A stretch of 53,368 nucleotides of DNA from a virus. Position 1 is the first letter of the stretch, and every line of letters begins with the position of its first letter. The DNA lies in IMG/VR virus record IMGVR_UViG_3300030388_000656, positions 1 to 53,368 of that record, one strand, 5' to 3'. The notes under the pieces were generated by a model. It ran no database searches. It saw only the letters and a program-made list of their open reading frames with translations, and had not been told where the DNA came from. The position numbers and the translations under genes are program-made. This document shows, piece by piece, positions 7,197 to 34,991 of this stretch.

Positions 7197-7229
7197 AAAA
7201 AAGAAAAAGAAAGGGGGAATTACCCCCCT
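7194..7229 (-). terminator. rho-independent terminator after the SSB-like gene
   Basis: On the minus strand the transcript forms AGGGGG (7229-7224), a six-base loop, then CCCCCT, followed directly by a pyrimidine run of about 18 bases, mostly T. It sits 20 bases past the SSB-like stop codon and separates the recombination operon from the primase operon. Confidence 0.8.
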
Positions 7230-13772: not shown

Positions 13773-14033
13773 TTAGTATAATTCTGATTTCTCGATGTTC
13801 TTGATTTCGTATTTTGGTAGCTCTTCGCAGTACTCTGAGTACTTGTTAAATGAATGCTCACACTTTCTGTCGATTTGTCTCAACTCCTTAGAATCGTATT
13901 CACATACGTTCTCATCTAAGTTGTCATAGACTAAGTCTCTGGTGTTATTGAATGCGTTGTGCTTTACCAACCAGTTAACTGCCTTAGTTACCAGTGGCTG
14001 ATTTTTAGACTTGATAGCTGTAAATTTACTCAT
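13773..14033 (-). CDS. hypothetical 86-aa protein, first gene of the early arm
   Basis: 86 aa, charged. Begins MSKFTAIKSKNQPLVTKAVN; the middle is NTRDLVYDNLDENVCEYDSKEL and the C-terminus is a helical EELPKYEIKNIEKSEL. No family was recognised. It is the first gene leftward of the non-coding hub, about 40 nt from a TATATTTG promoter box, so it is probably among the first proteins made. Confidence 0.65.
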   Translation of the reverse strand: MSKFTAIKSKNQPLVTKAVNWLVKHNAFNNTRDLVYDNLDENVCEYDSKELRQIDRKCEHSFNKYSEYCEELPKYEIKNIEKSELY

Positions 14034-14073
14034 GATTTATTAGGATTAGATTAATACTTGTTTATTATATGTG

Positions 14074-14081
14074 CAAATATA
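14074..14081 (-). promoter_or_regulatory. early leftward promoter -7 box
   Basis: Minus strand reads TATATTTG, an exact TAnnTTTG -7 box, 41 nt before the start codon at 14033. It is the hub-proximal promoter of the whole minus-strand arm. The -33 box is not obvious. Confidence 0.6.
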
Positions 14082-14552
14082 GTTTAATTAATCTATATAT
14101 CTACTATGATTCTCACTTAATCTATTGTTCCAGTATCAAATCATGTTCACTTCTGGTGTGCATCAAGGGTTTATCTGGGGTAAAACTTATTGTTTTGTTT
14201 ATGTATTCTGGGGTTCGATGGGGTATTAAGAGAGACTTCTCTCTCTCTATATTAGAGTTATATGCTCTCCAGTACAGCACAATACACACTTATCTGGGGG
14301 AAAGGTGTGGAATCTGGTGCTTATATCGTGGTATGCTGGAGCTACAGCGTAACGTGGAACGGATGAGAGGTTGTGGTGCTGGTGCTGGGGCTGGGGGGGT
14401 GTGACTGGCAGGTCAGAAAAAGACGAAAGGTCTGCTCTGGGATTTTCAAAATCGATAAGGGGGGGTTCGATTTTTTTCTCGTTTGGTAAACGCAGTATGG
14501 AACGTATTCTGGGGGGGAATGCTCAACCCCTATACATCTAAAAAAATTTTAT
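14082..14552. other. non-coding hub with plus-strand G-run repeats
   Basis: This stretch between the divergent arms holds no credible gene. It contains about seven plus-strand runs of four to seven G, most within a CTGGGG context (near 14158, 14209, 14295, 14385, 14516), plus GGTGCTGGTGCTGGGGCTGG at about 14372. Such strand-biased G clusters could form quadruplexes. The position at the divergence point fits an origin of replication, a packaging site or a master control region (inference). Confidence 0.5.
14448..14477 (+). terminator. stem-loop AAAATCGA/TCGATTTT with G-run loop and T tract
   Basis: An 8-bp stem (14448-14455 with 14467-14474) encloses the loop TAAGGGGGGGT and runs into seven T. 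As RNA it resembles a weak terminator that could insulate the plus-strand promoter at 14553 from hub transcription. As DNA it could be part of an origin. The stem is AT-rich, so terminator strength is doubtful. Confidence 0.4.
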
Positions 14553-14560
14553 TATCTTTG
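14553..14560 (+). promoter_or_regulatory. promoter -7 box for the first rightward gene
   Basis: TATCTTTG, an exact TAnnTTTG box, 36 nt before the ATG at 14597. The same octamer recurs upstream of many plus-strand genes in this window. Confidence 0.65.
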
Positions 14561-14596
14561 TCAAATAAACAGCAGTTAAAAATAAAAATATATATC

Positions 14597-14818
14597 ATGG
14601 CTAAAAAGAAAAGTACAACCTCGGATTACGTTAACGGTCTTTATGTAAAAGATGGTAGGTTAATTAATGATAGACCTGATGGTGAAACAGGAATCGCACA
14701 GGCATCTCGTCTAAGACAAGAGATGAAAAAACAATATAAAATAGATTCCATCGCTGATGGTATAGAGCGTGCTGAGATGCGAAAAGATATGAAAGCGAAG
14801 TTCGGCTTCGGCTTTTAA
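14597..14818 (+). CDS. hypothetical 73-aa basic protein
   Basis: I start it at the ATG at 14597 (MAKKKSTTSDYVNGLYVKDG), downstream of the promoter box; the longer frame to 14483 crosses that promoter. 73 aa, basic. Contains RPDGETGIAQASRLRQEMKKQ and ends AKFGFGF. No family was recognised. It forms a one-gene unit bounded by a promoter at 14553 and a terminator at 14842, so it is separately regulated and may be expressed early. Confidence 0.7.
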   Translation: MAKKKSTTSDYVNGLYVKDGRLINDRPDGETGIAQASRLRQEMKKQYKIDSIADGIERAEMRKDMKAKFGFGF

Positions 14819-15121: not shown

Positions 15122-16768
15122 ATGGAACAAGGATACATTCCTAAAGACCTCAGCTTTGATGATGAGGCAAGGAACAAATTGATAAGTGGGATTACTAAAA
15201 TCTCCAAAGCAGTTAAGAGTACGTTAGGGCCAAGAGGTCAAACTGTTTTAATAGAATCAACAGAACATTTACAGGGGTTAACTATTACAAAGGATGGAGT
15301 TACTGTCGCTAAGTCAGTACACCTTGATGATCCTATTGAGAACCTTGCAGTTCGTATGATGAAGCAAGCTTCTGAGAAGACTGCTAATGTTGCTGGAGAT
15401 GGAACTACTACAGCTATTGTATTGACTGAAGCTATTGTCCAGGCAGGAATGAAATGGATCAAGCCTTATCATAATGTAACTGACATTGTTAGATACATAA
15501 GAGAGGACTCTGATGTTATTATAGAGAACATTAGGAATAGATCATTAGAGGTTACTGATGATATGTTAAAAGACATTGCAGCTATATCAGCTAACAATGA
15601 TTATGAGTTAGGAGATATTATCTCTGAAGCATATCAACAAGTTGGTAAGGATGGGATAGTAACAGTTGAGAGATCTCAAACTGACAAGACATATTCAGAG
15701 GTTACTAATGGAATAAGAATAGATAGAGGTTATACTTCTCCTATGTTTATTAATGATCAAAGAAAAGATGAATGTATTATGGAAGGTGTTAAGGTTTTAA
15801 TCTGCGACACTGAGATTCATAACATACTTCAAATAGAGAATATACTTAAACCAATTATTAATGCAGGAGATAAACTTTTAATTATCGGAACTTGTGCTGG
15901 CAATGTTATAAATACATTAGCAGCAAATGTTCAACGTAATGGATTAAAGTTTTGTAACATCATGCCTCCTTCATTTGGATACAAGACTCATGAGTTAATG
16001 CAGGATATTGCATTTGCTACTGGAGCTAAATACTTTTCAGAAAAGACTGGAGATGATTTATCTATTATAACTATGGCAGACTTGGGTTATGCTGATAAGA
16101 TTATAGTAGGCAAGTCATCTACTGTTATTATAAAGCAAGGAGATATTAGTGATGAGACATCTTCAAGAGTAGCAGAGCTACGAGATCAACAAGAAAGACT
16201 TACAGCAAAACATGAGAAGGACTTTATCAATGAAAGGATTGCTTCTTTAGTTGGAGGGATAGGTTGTATATATGTTGGGGCTACATCTGATATAGAACAA
16301 AAAGAAAAATTTGACAGAGTCGATGACTCTGTCTGTGCAGTACGTTCAGCTCTACAAGAAGGAGTTGTTCCTGGTGGAGGATTATTGTTATATGATTTCT
16401 CAAGACACTTCGGTTGTAACTGTGAAGATGCAGTATCTGAAAAGATAGATGAAGACCAGGCAGCAGAAATGATTATGAGAGAAGCTTTGAAAGCTCCACT
16501 AAAACAAATCCTTGCTAATGCTGGGCTTGATGAAAAGGAAGTTATGTCAGAGATATATACTGATGCTATGTTAGGAACATTAGATGATGCTCCTGAAGTA
16601 CCAGAAAATAACAGAGGCTATGATGTGGTAGGTAAACAATACGGAGATATGTTTGAGATGGGTATTGTTGATCCAGCCAAAGTAACGAAAGAAGCTTTGC
16701 TTAATGCAATTAGTGTTGCAACAACTATACTAACTACTAACGCAATCATAACACATAAACGAGCATGA
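15122..16768 (+). CDS. groEL: phage-encoded chaperonin GroEL
   Basis: 548 aa, full family length. Near the N-terminus are SKAVKSTLGPRGQTVLI and TITKDGVTVAKSV. The nucleotide-binding motif GDGTTTA sits at 92-98 (the phosphate-binding Asp is 93), and a second equatorial segment at about 400-425 has RVDDSVCAVRSALQEGVV then PGGG. The C-terminus lacks the GGM-repeat tail of host GroEL. It forms a folding cage for proteins, here probably the major capsid or other virion proteins. groES follows with an ATGA overlap. Sequence away from the ATP site looks divergent, suggesting long residence in phages rather than a recent host capture. Confidence 0.95.
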   Translation: MEQGYIPKDLSFDDEARNKLISGITKISKAVKSTLGPRGQTVLIESTEHLQGLTITKDGVTVAKSVHLDDPIENLAVRMMKQASEKTANVAGDGTTTAIVLTEAIVQAGMKWIKPYHNVTDIVRYIREDSDVIIENIRNRSLEVTDDMLKDIAAISANNDYELGDIISEAYQQVGKDGIVTVERSQTDKTYSEVTNGIRIDRGYTSPMFINDQRKDECIMEGVKVLICDTEIHNILQIENILKPIINAGDKLLIIGTCAGNVINTLAANVQRNGLKFCNIMPPSFGYKTHELMQDIAFATGAKYFSEKTGDDLSIITMADLGYADKIIVGKSSTVIIKQGDISDETSSRVAELRDQQERLTAKHEKDFINERIASLVGGIGCIYVGATSDIEQKEKFDRVDDSVCAVRSALQEGVVPGGGLLLYDFSRHFGCNCEDAVSEKIDEDQAAEMIMREALKAPLKQILANAGLDEKEVMSEIYTDAMLGTLDDAPEVPENNRGYDVVGKQYGDMFEMGIVDPAKVTKEALLNAISVATTILTTNAIITHKRA

Positions 16769-17022
16769 AGCCAATAGGAAAATATATTGTAATCAAAACT
16801 ATTAAAGAAGAACTAAAGACAGAGTCTGGACTTCTTCTGTCTGCACAAGATGCAGATGGTTTTAGATATCGTAAAGGTATTGTGATTGAGCAAGGAACAA
16901 ATGTTTCTGATATAAAAAAAGATGATGTTATCTATTATGATAAATCTGCTGGACATGAAATGTTAATCGAAGACAATCCTTATACTGTGATTACTGAGAG
17001 AGATGTCGTTGTTGTCTTGTAA
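16765..17022 (+). CDS. groES: phage co-chaperonin GroES
   Basis: 85 aa, slightly shorter than bacterial GroES (about 95). KPIGKYIVIKTIKEELKTES is the first strand, the mobile loop is around SGLLLSAQDADGFRY, then KGIVIEQG and KKDDVIYYDKSAGHEM as the barrel strands. It caps the GroEL ring. The start overlaps the groEL stop by four bases, so stoichiometry is coupled. The 3' end overlaps the convergent winged-helix gene by 32 bases. Confidence 0.92.
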   Translation: MKPIGKYIVIKTIKEELKTESGLLLSAQDADGFRYRKGIVIEQGTNVSDIKKDDVIYYDKSAGHEMLIEDNPYTVITERDVVVVL

Positions 17023-17461
17023 ACTGATTCATTTCTATAATCATATTACGATAAACCTTATCCATATAGGAAGCATCATGTCTAAATAAAGGGTTGGCCT
17101 TAGGGCCTTCTCCTATTTCTTCTCCATTAAGTTTCTTATATAATGTGTTGATCAAACGCTTTCCTTTATATGATAGCTCATATAGAGTAGATTCTTTACC
17201 CTCTCTTTTTCTCCAGATAGTTATCCATCCTTCTTTCAAGAGTCTATGAAATCTTGGCTCATCCCAGGACATACATTCCTCGAATTCTTTGAATTTTGTT
17301 TTGTTAAATATCTGCTCTCCATATAGAAAAAACAACATATCTATATCAGGAGTTCCGACTTTGTACTTGGCTTTAGCCCAGTACCTTATCACCCTCCAGT
17401 ACTTCATGTAATCATGTGAGGGTTGAACTCTATCGTAATTTTTCCGAACTATATTTGGCAT
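16991..17461 (-). CDS. winged-helix-like regulator candidate
   Basis: 156 aa, basic and aromatic. After MPNIVRKNYDRVQPSHDYMK, residues about 40-120 look like a PadR/MarR-type winged helix: DMLFFLYGEQIFNKTKF, ECMSWDEPRFHRLLKEGW, ITIWRKREGKE as the wing, then YELSYKGKRLINTLYKKL. It is the only minus-strand gene inside the plus-strand arm, and its start faces the promoter at 17475-17482. That arrangement suggests control of its own gene and of the late operon (inference). The domain call is by pattern only. Confidence 0.65.
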   Translation of the reverse strand: MPNIVRKNYDRVQPSHDYMKYWRVIRYWAKAKYKVGTPDIDMLFFLYGEQIFNKTKFKEFEECMSWDEPRFHRLLKEGWITIWRKREGKESTLYELSYKGKRLINTLYKKLNGEEIGEGPKANPLFRHDASYMDKVYRNMIIEMNQFTRQQRHLSQ

Positions 17462-32489: not shown

Positions 32490-32767
32490 TGGATATAAAG
32501 GAACTTAAGTTAAGTATAATTGAAGCAGGAGAAAAAGCTGTTAAACAATTAATTAGAGTAGCTAAAGAAGATATTATTAAATACGAAGCAGAAGATCCTT
32601 TAGCAGCTGATAGATTAAAAAACGCAGCAGCTACTAAAAAATTATGCATCATGGATGCTTTTGAAATATTAAAAAGAATAGAAGAAGAGAGAGCTCTTCT
32701 TAACGGAACTGTAACTGAAAAGAAAAACAATACACCAAGAGGATTTGCTGAATCAAGATCAAAATAA
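32489..32767 (+). CDS. small terminase subunit candidate
   Basis: 92 aa, helical: MDIKELKLSIIEAGEKAVKQ, LIRVAKEDIIKYEAEDPLAA, DRLKNAAATKKLCIMDAFEI, then a basic tail. It directly precedes and overlaps the large terminase by 23 bases, the usual place of TerS, and its size and helical charged character fit. No clear HTH is visible, so the call rests mostly on position. Confidence 0.5.
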   Translation: MDIKELKLSIIEAGEKAVKQLIRVAKEDIIKYEAEDPLAADRLKNAAATKKLCIMDAFEILKRIEEERALLNGTVTEKKNNTPRGFAESRSK

Positions 32768-34991
32768 ATTATATAAAGTTTTAACAAACTACATTCCTAA
32801 ATCTGTTTTAGTAAATAAAAACAGGGCAAGAACTTGGCTCTATGGTTATAACGAAAAGTATAATTTAGTTATTATATCTAAAACTGGACAGGTAGGTAAT
32901 GTTATAGATATCAATGGGTTACAGATAGGATTACCTCCAGCACCTAAGGAAGTATATAGTCGCTCTTCAAAAAAAGAAGAACAATACTGGGAGACAGTTC
33001 CTTTAGTTCGAGATCTAAGTAGAATTAAATCTATATTTCAGTGGCACGATACTCCAGATGAGTTTAAGTCTCAATGGGTAGACTTCATAGAAGAAGAATT
33101 TAATAGAAGAGAAGAAGGTCATTGGTTTATGAATAATGGAAATCCTGTTTATATAACAGGAACTCATTATATGTATTTACAATGGACTAAGATTGATATA
33201 GGTAATCCAGATTTTAGAGAAGCAAATAGAATATTTTATATTTTCTGGGAAGCATGCAAAGCTGACAAGAGAAGTTTTGGAATGTGTTACTTAAAAATTA
33301 GACGTTCTGGATTTTCTTTTATGAGTTCATGTGAAGGAGTAAACAAAGCAACTATTACTAAAGATGCTCGTATTGGAATATTATCTAAAACAGGTAGTGA
33401 TGCCAAAAAAATGTTTACTGATAAAGTTGTTCCTATCTCAAATAACTATCCATTCTTTTTTAAACCCATACAAGATGGTATGGATAAACCAAAAACAGAA
33501 TTAGCATATAGAGTTCCTGCATCTAAGATTACTAAAAAGAATATGCACACTTTAGCTGATGAAGAGTTAGAGGGATTAGATACAACTATTGACTGGAAAA
33601 ATACAGGAGACAATAGTTATGATGGTGAGAAATTACAATTACTACTTCATGATGAAAGTGGTAAATGGGAAAAGCCTGATAATATATTAAACAACTGGAG
33701 GGTTACAAAAACATGTCTCAGGTTAGGTAGTAGAATTATAGGTAAGTGTATGATGGGATCTACTTCTAATGCCTTAGATAAAGGTGGTAGAAACTTTAAA
33801 GCATTATATGAAGATTCTTTTCCAACCAAACGAAATGCAAATGGTCAAACCAAAAGTGGATTGTATTGTTTATTTGTTCCTATGGAATGGAACTTTGAGG
33901 GATATATAGATCGCTATGGAATGCCAATACTTACTACTCCTGCAAAACCTGTTATAGGAATTGATGGAGAGGTAATAACTTTAGGGGCTATAGATTACTG
34001 GACAAATGAAGTAGAGTCTTTGTCTCAAGATCCAGATGCATTAAATGAATTTTATAGACAGTTTCCAAGAACAGAGTCTCATGCTTTTAGAGATGAGAGT
34101 AAACAATCTTTATTTAATCTTACAAAGATTTATCAGCAAATAGATTATAACGATTCTTTAATAATGCCTCATCACATAACAAGAGGTTCTTTTAGCTGGA
34201 AGAATGGAATAAAAGATACTGAAGTTATTTGGAGTCCAAACAAAGATGGTAGATTTATTGTAAGCTGGACACCTCCACCACACTTGCAAAACAAACAGTT
34301 TGAGGAAAGAGGAATGAAGAAACCAGGGAATGAATCTATTGGTTCATTTGGTTGTGATTCATATGACATATCAGGAGTGGTTGTTGGTAAAGGATCTAAT
34401 GGATCTTTACATGGTCTTACTAAATTCAATATGTCTGAAGCTCCAAGTAATCATTTTTTCTTAGAGTATATAGCCAGACCTCAGACAGCAGAAATATTTT
34501 TTGAGGAAGTATTAATGGCTTGTATATTTTATGGTATGCCTATATTATGTGAGAACAATAAACCTCGTTTATTATATCATTTTAAGAACAGAGGATACAG
34601 AGGATATTCATTAAATAGGCCAGACAAAACATACACTAAACTTTCTAAAACAGAAAGAGAATTAGGTGGTATACCAAACAGTTCAGAAGATGTAAAACAA
34701 TCGCATGCTTCAGCTATAGAATCGTATATTGAAAAATATGTTGGTGTTGATTTTAATGGAGATAATCGTGATCCAGGAGACATGGGAGACATGTATTTTG
34801 GAAGGACATTAGAAGACTGGGCAAAATTTGATATTAGTAATAGAACAAAGTTTGATGCAGCGATTAGTTCAGGGTTAGCTATCATGGCTAACCAGAAACA
34901 CTTATACACACCATCTAAACAAAAATCAAAAATAAGTATTAACTTTGCAAGATATAATAACAAGAATACACTAAGTAAAATAATTACATGA
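32745..34991 (+). CDS. terL: large terminase subunit
   Basis: 748 aa. ATPase: an atypical Walker A around residue 183 (LKIRRSGFSFMSS), Walker B LLLHDESGKW at about 301-308, and coupling motif MGSTSNA at about 338. The C-terminal RNase H-like nuclease has an Asp in GCDSYD (about 536) and a Glu in MPILCENNK. It also has HWFMNNGNPVYITGTHYMYL near the N-terminus, seen in TerL of Cellulophaga/crAss-like phages. It pumps DNA into the prohead and cuts concatemers. The stop overlaps the portal start (ATGA). Confidence 0.9.
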   Translation: MLNQDQNKLYKVLTNYIPKSVLVNKNRARTWLYGYNEKYNLVIISKTGQVGNVIDINGLQIGLPPAPKEVYSRSSKKEEQYWETVPLVRDLSRIKSIFQWHDTPDEFKSQWVDFIEEEFNRREEGHWFMNNGNPVYITGTHYMYLQWTKIDIGNPDFREANRIFYIFWEACKADKRSFGMCYLKIRRSGFSFMSSCEGVNKATITKDARIGILSKTGSDAKKMFTDKVVPISNNYPFFFKPIQDGMDKPKTELAYRVPASKITKKNMHTLADEELEGLDTTIDWKNTGDNSYDGEKLQLLLHDESGKWEKPDNILNNWRVTKTCLRLGSRIIGKCMMGSTSNALDKGGRNFKALYEDSFPTKRNANGQTKSGLYCLFVPMEWNFEGYIDRYGMPILTTPAKPVIGIDGEVITLGAIDYWTNEVESLSQDPDALNEFYRQFPRTESHAFRDESKQSLFNLTKIYQQIDYNDSLIMPHHITRGSFSWKNGIKDTEVIWSPNKDGRFIVSWTPPPHLQNKQFEERGMKKPGNESIGSFGCDSYDISGVVVGKGSNGSLHGLTKFNMSEAPSNHFFLEYIARPQTAEIFFEEVLMACIFYGMPILCENNKPRLLYHFKNRGYRGYSLNRPDKTYTKLSKTERELGGIPNSSEDVKQSHASAIESYIEKYVGVDFNGDNRDPGDMGDMYFGRTLEDWAKFDISNRTKFDAAISSGLAIMANQKHLYTPSKQKSKISINFARYNNKNTLSKIIT

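Follow-up and report, generated by a model that had tools for sequence, protein, structure and literature searches.

The non-coding hub of a metagenomic phage genome as a probable packaging site at short direct terminal repeats

The window analysed here, a metagenome contig of 53,368 nucleotides (IMG/VR record IMGVR_UViG_3300030388_000656), has a leftward and a rightward gene arm separated by a non-coding hub. We consider it probable that this hub is the genome-end site, serving both packaging and terminus formation, of a phage with short direct terminal repeats. The right edge of the hub carries a bipartite core, consisting of an A-box followed by a G or C homopolymer, and in one relative, Tenacibaculum phage Gundel_1, the same core lies within the edges of a predicted terminal repeat; a terminal-repeat packaging site is therefore the best explanation of the hub. 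A preliminary description of the G-run-rich stretch had offered a packaging site as one of three possible functions, beside a replication origin and a quadruplex-based switch. Packaging is the one that gained support, from the presence of both core and hairpin in the predicted Gundel_1 repeat, and from the finding that the motif tracks the terminase family and not the replication genes. The features referred to below are as follows, with coordinates in the window.

14034..14596, no strand: non-coding hub separating the two gene arms, defined as an ORF gap
14074..14081, minus strand: -7 box TATATTTG of the leftward promoter, from the sequence; aligned as CAAAGATA/CAAATATA in relatives
14193..14228, plus strand: left-edge block TTTTGTTTATGTATTCTGGGGTTCGATGGGGTATTA, from the alignment and 30+ loci; just outside and across the predicted left repeat boundary
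about 14218..14519, no strand: predicted direct terminal repeat of about 300 bp, placed by the Gundel_1 hairpin and core distances
14229..14244, no strand: left-edge hairpin AGAGAGA-CT-TCTCTCT, with pairing kept and sequence changed in relatives
14291..14306, plus strand: TATCTGGGGGAAAGGT, the local version of the GGGGGAAGGT box, from alignments; often two copies in relatives
14307..14410, no strand: variable, low-complexity, G-rich interior (GTGCTGGTGCTGGGGCTGGGGGGG), with different repeats in every lineage
14417..14428, plus strand: core A-box AAAAAGACGAAA, from the alignment; weaker than the strict consensus
14459..14465, plus strand: core homopolymer tract G7, 33 nt from the start of the second A-run
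14504..14541, plus strand: conserved block that includes the predicted cut (14519/14520) and the sequence upstream of the promoter, from the alignment; single copy
14553..14560, plus strand: -7 box TATCTTTG of the rightward promoter, from the sequence and relatives
32745..34991, plus strand: terminase large subunit (phrog_6681, E 1e-176), expected to be the enzyme that acts here

The hub is bordered by the last leftward ORF (13773-14033, minus strand) and by a small rightward ORF (14597-14818, plus strand), after which comes groEL. The rightward arm has this phage GroEL gene (phrog_5725, 15122-16768) as its first large gene, and groES/GroEL are also found in elemo, phi38:1 and MW202828. Near the hub, the right arm has a single leftward gene, at 16991-17461; the MW202828 counterpart, likewise antisense, has a repressor annotation. 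Elsewhere in the window, an intergenic GGGGGAATTACCCCCC hairpin at 7213-7228, upstream of the primase-helicase gene, is likely to be a terminator.

The preliminary description had noted a cluster of G-runs on one strand only, a stem-loop with a seven-G loop, and divergent promoters at both edges. The cluster is real: eight runs of four or more G were found on the plus strand between 14177 and 14517, compared with at most three in any other 471-nt stretch of the window and at most 3-5 per 471 nt in whole-window shuffles. Judged against the dinucleotide make-up of the hub itself, the number of runs is ordinary (mean 5.6, p ~0.10), and the three G7 runs are unusual (p 0.003). A single C4 run is present, at 14527. 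The stem-loop (AAAATCGA-TAAGGGGGGGT-TCGATTTT) is present with arms of 8 bp, but the stem is lost in aligned relatives and was rejected as a conserved element. The promoters were borne out, as both -7 boxes are of the Bacteroidetes type and diverge from either side of the G-run stretch.

Related hubs were collected by a groEL search, which yielded 79 IMG/VR loci. A hub HMM matched 43 of the 44 relatives with full flanks. The distance between the divergent promoters is approximately 472 nt in many relatives (range 447-534), despite strong divergence of the sequence between them, and the alignment consists of two conserved edges and a variable middle. Comparison with relatives, which the preliminary description had proposed as a check, thus upheld the anatomy of the hub, but G-runs, strand bias and quadruplex potential were not conserved. 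At the left edge, relatives carry TTTTGTTTATGTnTTTTGGGGTTCGTGGGGGTATTA followed by the hairpin, with arms that differ between loci: AGAGAGA/TCTCTCT in the window, AGGTCAA/TTGACCT in L003 and GGGGGA/TCCCCC in L028. Among 22 loci, a 60-nt window at the hairpin offset gave mean folding z-scores against shuffles of -2.1 and -2.2 on the two strands (standard error 0.34), and all other scanned offsets folded more weakly. A terminator function for the hairpin was rejected, since the T-run is not conserved. The interiors of the hubs carry lineage-specific short tandem-like repeats (CCGAG, GTTGGCTG, ACAG and CCACCA, in L019, L025, L028, L016 and L031). At the right edge the conserved block ends in AACCCTCAACCCC, immediately before the rightward -7 box, and is present once in each matching contig and once in the window.

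The core at the right edge has the form A4-5-N3-4-A4-5, followed by a G or C homopolymer that begins 31-33 nt from the start of the second A-run. In relatives within the lineage the A-box is of the AAAAACGGCAAAAA type and the tract is G7-9 or C4-9, some relatives having G and others C at the same coordinate. Most lineages have 32-33 nt from the start of the second A-run to the tract, one group has 44-46 nt, and one sublineage (the L020 group) lacks the homopolymer tract in the alignment. The A-box of the window is degenerate, and the strict pattern consequently has no match there; with a spacing of 33 nt and a position in a non-coding hub, the window core nonetheless has the arrangement seen in Gundel_1.

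The strict core pattern was also run against all of IMG/VR, together with a control pattern in which the C tract was moved 5 nt closer. At 32 nt there were 54 C-form and 23 G-form matches, compared with five C-form matches for the shifted control; the reversed pattern had no match in the 23 G-form records. Matching contigs longer than 30 kb numbered 35, of which 25 encode the window's terminase (68-76% identity) and four more the primase of the lineage, so that 29 of 35 have terminase and/or primase; neither was found in any of the five controls. The motif is non-coding in 26 of the 29 positive contigs and coding in all five controls, and a TAnnTTTG box follows it in 20 of the 29 and in none of the five. 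Within the lineage alone, terminase and replication genes co-occur and are inseparable as correlates. In one relative (L057, record G013:C1:40666-42894) the terminase gene is in pieces, with many in-frame stops, mostly TAA, which may reflect sequencing errors, gene degradation or recoding.

Outside the lineage, the strict core at exactly 32 nt was found in Flavobacterium phage elemo (19889), Cellulophaga phage phi38:1 (34308), Calle_1 (35291), phi46:3 (21640), MW202828 (42966) and Gundel_1. It is single-copy in the sequence examined of these six phages, where shuffles give an expectation of 0 to 0.15; the Gundel core, which is listed twice since it lies inside the terminal repeat, was counted as once per genome. 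In all six the core sits in a non-coding hub, and phi13:2, phi18:3 and phi19:3 have it with a 31-nt spacing. The terminase and portal of the window have relatives in the core-bearing phages; in the comparison for kinship of the Gundel_1 type, the portal matched at 26.8% over 80% of the query, and Tenacibaculum was among the terminase matches. Their replication genes differ: polymerase A and a primase-polymerase in phi38:1, DnaC-like and DnaA-like proteins in phi46:3 and Gundel, a TOPRIM primase-helicase in elemo, and an AEP-type primase-helicase in the window. Conversely, Nonlabens phage P12024S, mumin6-4, phi46:1 and Leef_1, which have related primase or helicase genes without the window's terminase, gave no strict core match.

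Some further candidates were rejected as core carriers. No core was found in Maribacter phage Panino, and the strict motif was not found in the parts examined of crAss-like phages, including two with predicted ends, crAss001 (short repeat; 50 kb examined) and crAss002 (headful). Crass-like hubs do carry G-runs between divergent arms (crAss001 record 130-190; phi14:2 near 97920), without the strict 32-nt core.

Gundel_1 is the only relative that has both the core and known, though predicted, ends. Its record has direct terminal repeats of 322 bp at 1-322 and 78512-78833; the short repeats were predicted from reads with PhageTerm and are described by the authors as a prediction only (PMC8776804). 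Inside this predicted repeat are the core A-box, at 100, and a G6 tract, at 60-55, and the genome end is 54 nt past the G6 tract. The only strong short-loop hairpin found in the repeat, TCGCTT-CT-AAGCGA (311-298), lies 11 nt inside the opposite edge. Order is identical in the two phages, with 188 nt between hairpin and A-box in the window and 211 nt in Gundel, and the window hairpin, conserved in structure by folding z-score, takes the corresponding place at the other edge of the predicted repeat. Transfer of the Gundel_1 distances from hairpin and core to the ends places the putative window repeat at approximately 14218-14519, with a predicted cut at GGGGGGGAA|TGCTC. At the same position relatives read GGGGAA|CCCTC or ATAA|CCCTC, which belongs to the best-conserved block in the hub. 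The sequence preceding the core yielded no strong hairpin with a short loop in elemo, phi38:1 or MW202828.

Contig ends were also considered. IMG/VR classes the records as linear. At least 11 of the 79 groEL contigs end inside the hub (L002, L004, L006, L013, L015, L018, L021, L027, L031, L063 and L064), far above expectation, and in one contig the hub gives a self-overlap of 148 bp. The ends are scattered over the hub and do not fall at the predicted cuts, and they were rejected as fixed physical ends. Together with the self-overlap they indicate a hub that is hard to assemble, and are not proof of ends.

On the packaging interpretation, terminase would recognise the core in concatemeric DNA, reading the A-box and then the G/C homopolymer, which at 32-33 nt would be about three helical turns apart. 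It would cut around 14519/14520, some 54 nt past the tract. The hairpin at 14229-14244 may mark the other edge of the repeat, either through a second cut or through repeat duplication or fill-in, and the interior of the repeat would be free to vary.

An origin of replication, at which the primase-helicase or a DnaA-domain initiator would bind the G-boxes and melt the AT-rich flanks, is an unlikely explanation of the hub. It would suit the position of the hub, where the two arms diverge and cumulative GC skew reaches its minimum; the replication genes (AEP-type primase-helicase, helicase and annealing protein) are in the neighbouring arm, and the repeated GGGGGAAGGT boxes resemble iterons. The skew, however, follows gene strand: it is -0.17 in the right-arm antisense gene (16991-17461) and +0.32 in the rightward gene at 19-744. 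The minimum at the hub is thus confounded by gene direction, and the GC-skew check that had been proposed gives no evidence of an origin. DnaA boxes do not cluster in the hub, which has one with a mismatch, and their total in the genome is below chance. The core, moreover, does not follow the replication proteins: phages that differ in them share it, and phages in which they are similar lack it. The origin option gained no independent support. The preliminary description had also pointed to two DnaA-IV-like proteins; one was found, at 2163-2690, among the proteins scanned, a set that covers part of the small ORFs. It consists of a stand-alone DnaA domain IV (Bac_DnaA_C) and a coiled-coil tail, and the annotations of MW202828, phi46:3, Gundel and mumin include similar proteins.

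That the hub controls divergent transcription and does nothing else, the core and G-boxes being sites at which a phage regulator acts on both promoters, is quite unlikely. The two promoters do lie at a nearly constant distance, and AACCCTCAACCCC is directly upstream of the -7 box, with a similar inverted block near the left edge. This explanation nevertheless leaves unaccounted for the presence of the core in the terminal repeat of Gundel_1, the 32-nt geometry, which is fixed whichever strand bears the homopolymer, and conservation across families with different gene neighbourhoods. We regard a quadruplex, or a G-run-containing part of a structured RNA switch, as very improbable. G-runs are dense, and perfect quadruplex motifs occur in the hubs of L072, L076, L033, L034 and L025, but the other 18 of 23 hubs, that of the window included, have no canonical motif, and the tract changes strand between relatives. 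A structured RNA was rejected, as whole-hub folding was no better than that of shuffles (z ~0 on both strands) and there was no Rfam match. The terminal-repeat packaging site, which we prefer, can also serve transcription; such dual use is possible because both promoters abut the site. An origin of replication may in addition lie nearby.

For nearly all uncultured phages the genome ends are unknown, as terminal repeats are lost in assembly. With a core readable from sequence, ends and packaging mode could be predicted in a large and abundant group of marine phages; portal relatives in IMG/VR number at least 599. The hub also provides a concrete candidate site for terminase binding and cleavage. 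Since the homopolymer at its fixed position can be either G or C, recognition may read DNA shape and not base sequence.

Of the systems available for comparison, Gundel_1 is closest. Like the window it has a non-coding hub beside replication genes, a related terminase and portal, the core (at 32 nt, compared with 33 nt in the window) and a hairpin just inside the other repeat edge; it differs in the arrangement of its gene arms and in its unrelated interior sequence, and its ends were predicted from reads whereas those of the window are placed by analogy. Among classical cis-acting sites of terminases, lambda cos gives cohesive ends and headful pac sites give permuted ends, and A-tract bending beside recognition elements is a familiar layout. 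To our knowledge neither cos nor pac has the arrangement of A-box, 32 nt and G/C tract, and the hub further differs from both in lying about 18 kb from the terminase gene. The Bacteroidetes podovirus-type phage crAss001 is described as having divergent arms and a predicted terminal repeat of 576 bp (PMC6235969), and in these two respects resembles the hub as interpreted here. In the herpesvirus a-sequence, the pac1 and pac2 elements combine an A/T tract with G/C homopolymer-like elements, set close to the terminase cut at a constant distance; they lie in terminal repeats whose interior is repetitive and variable (PMC10763189). The layout of the hub resembles this, but pac1 and pac2 lie on either side of the cut and the one bipartite core of the hub on one side. 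The host domains differ; the likeness is one of design, and we claim neither membership nor sequence homology. It is conceivable, though doubtful, that one terminus module is common to a Bacteroidetes clade comprising the window lineage, elemo, Pervagoviridae and Pachyviridae, in which a strand-indifferent core of A-tract and G/C homopolymer would fix one cut, and a hairpin free in sequence would fix the other edge and prime repeat duplication, in a layout that parallels herpesvirus pac.
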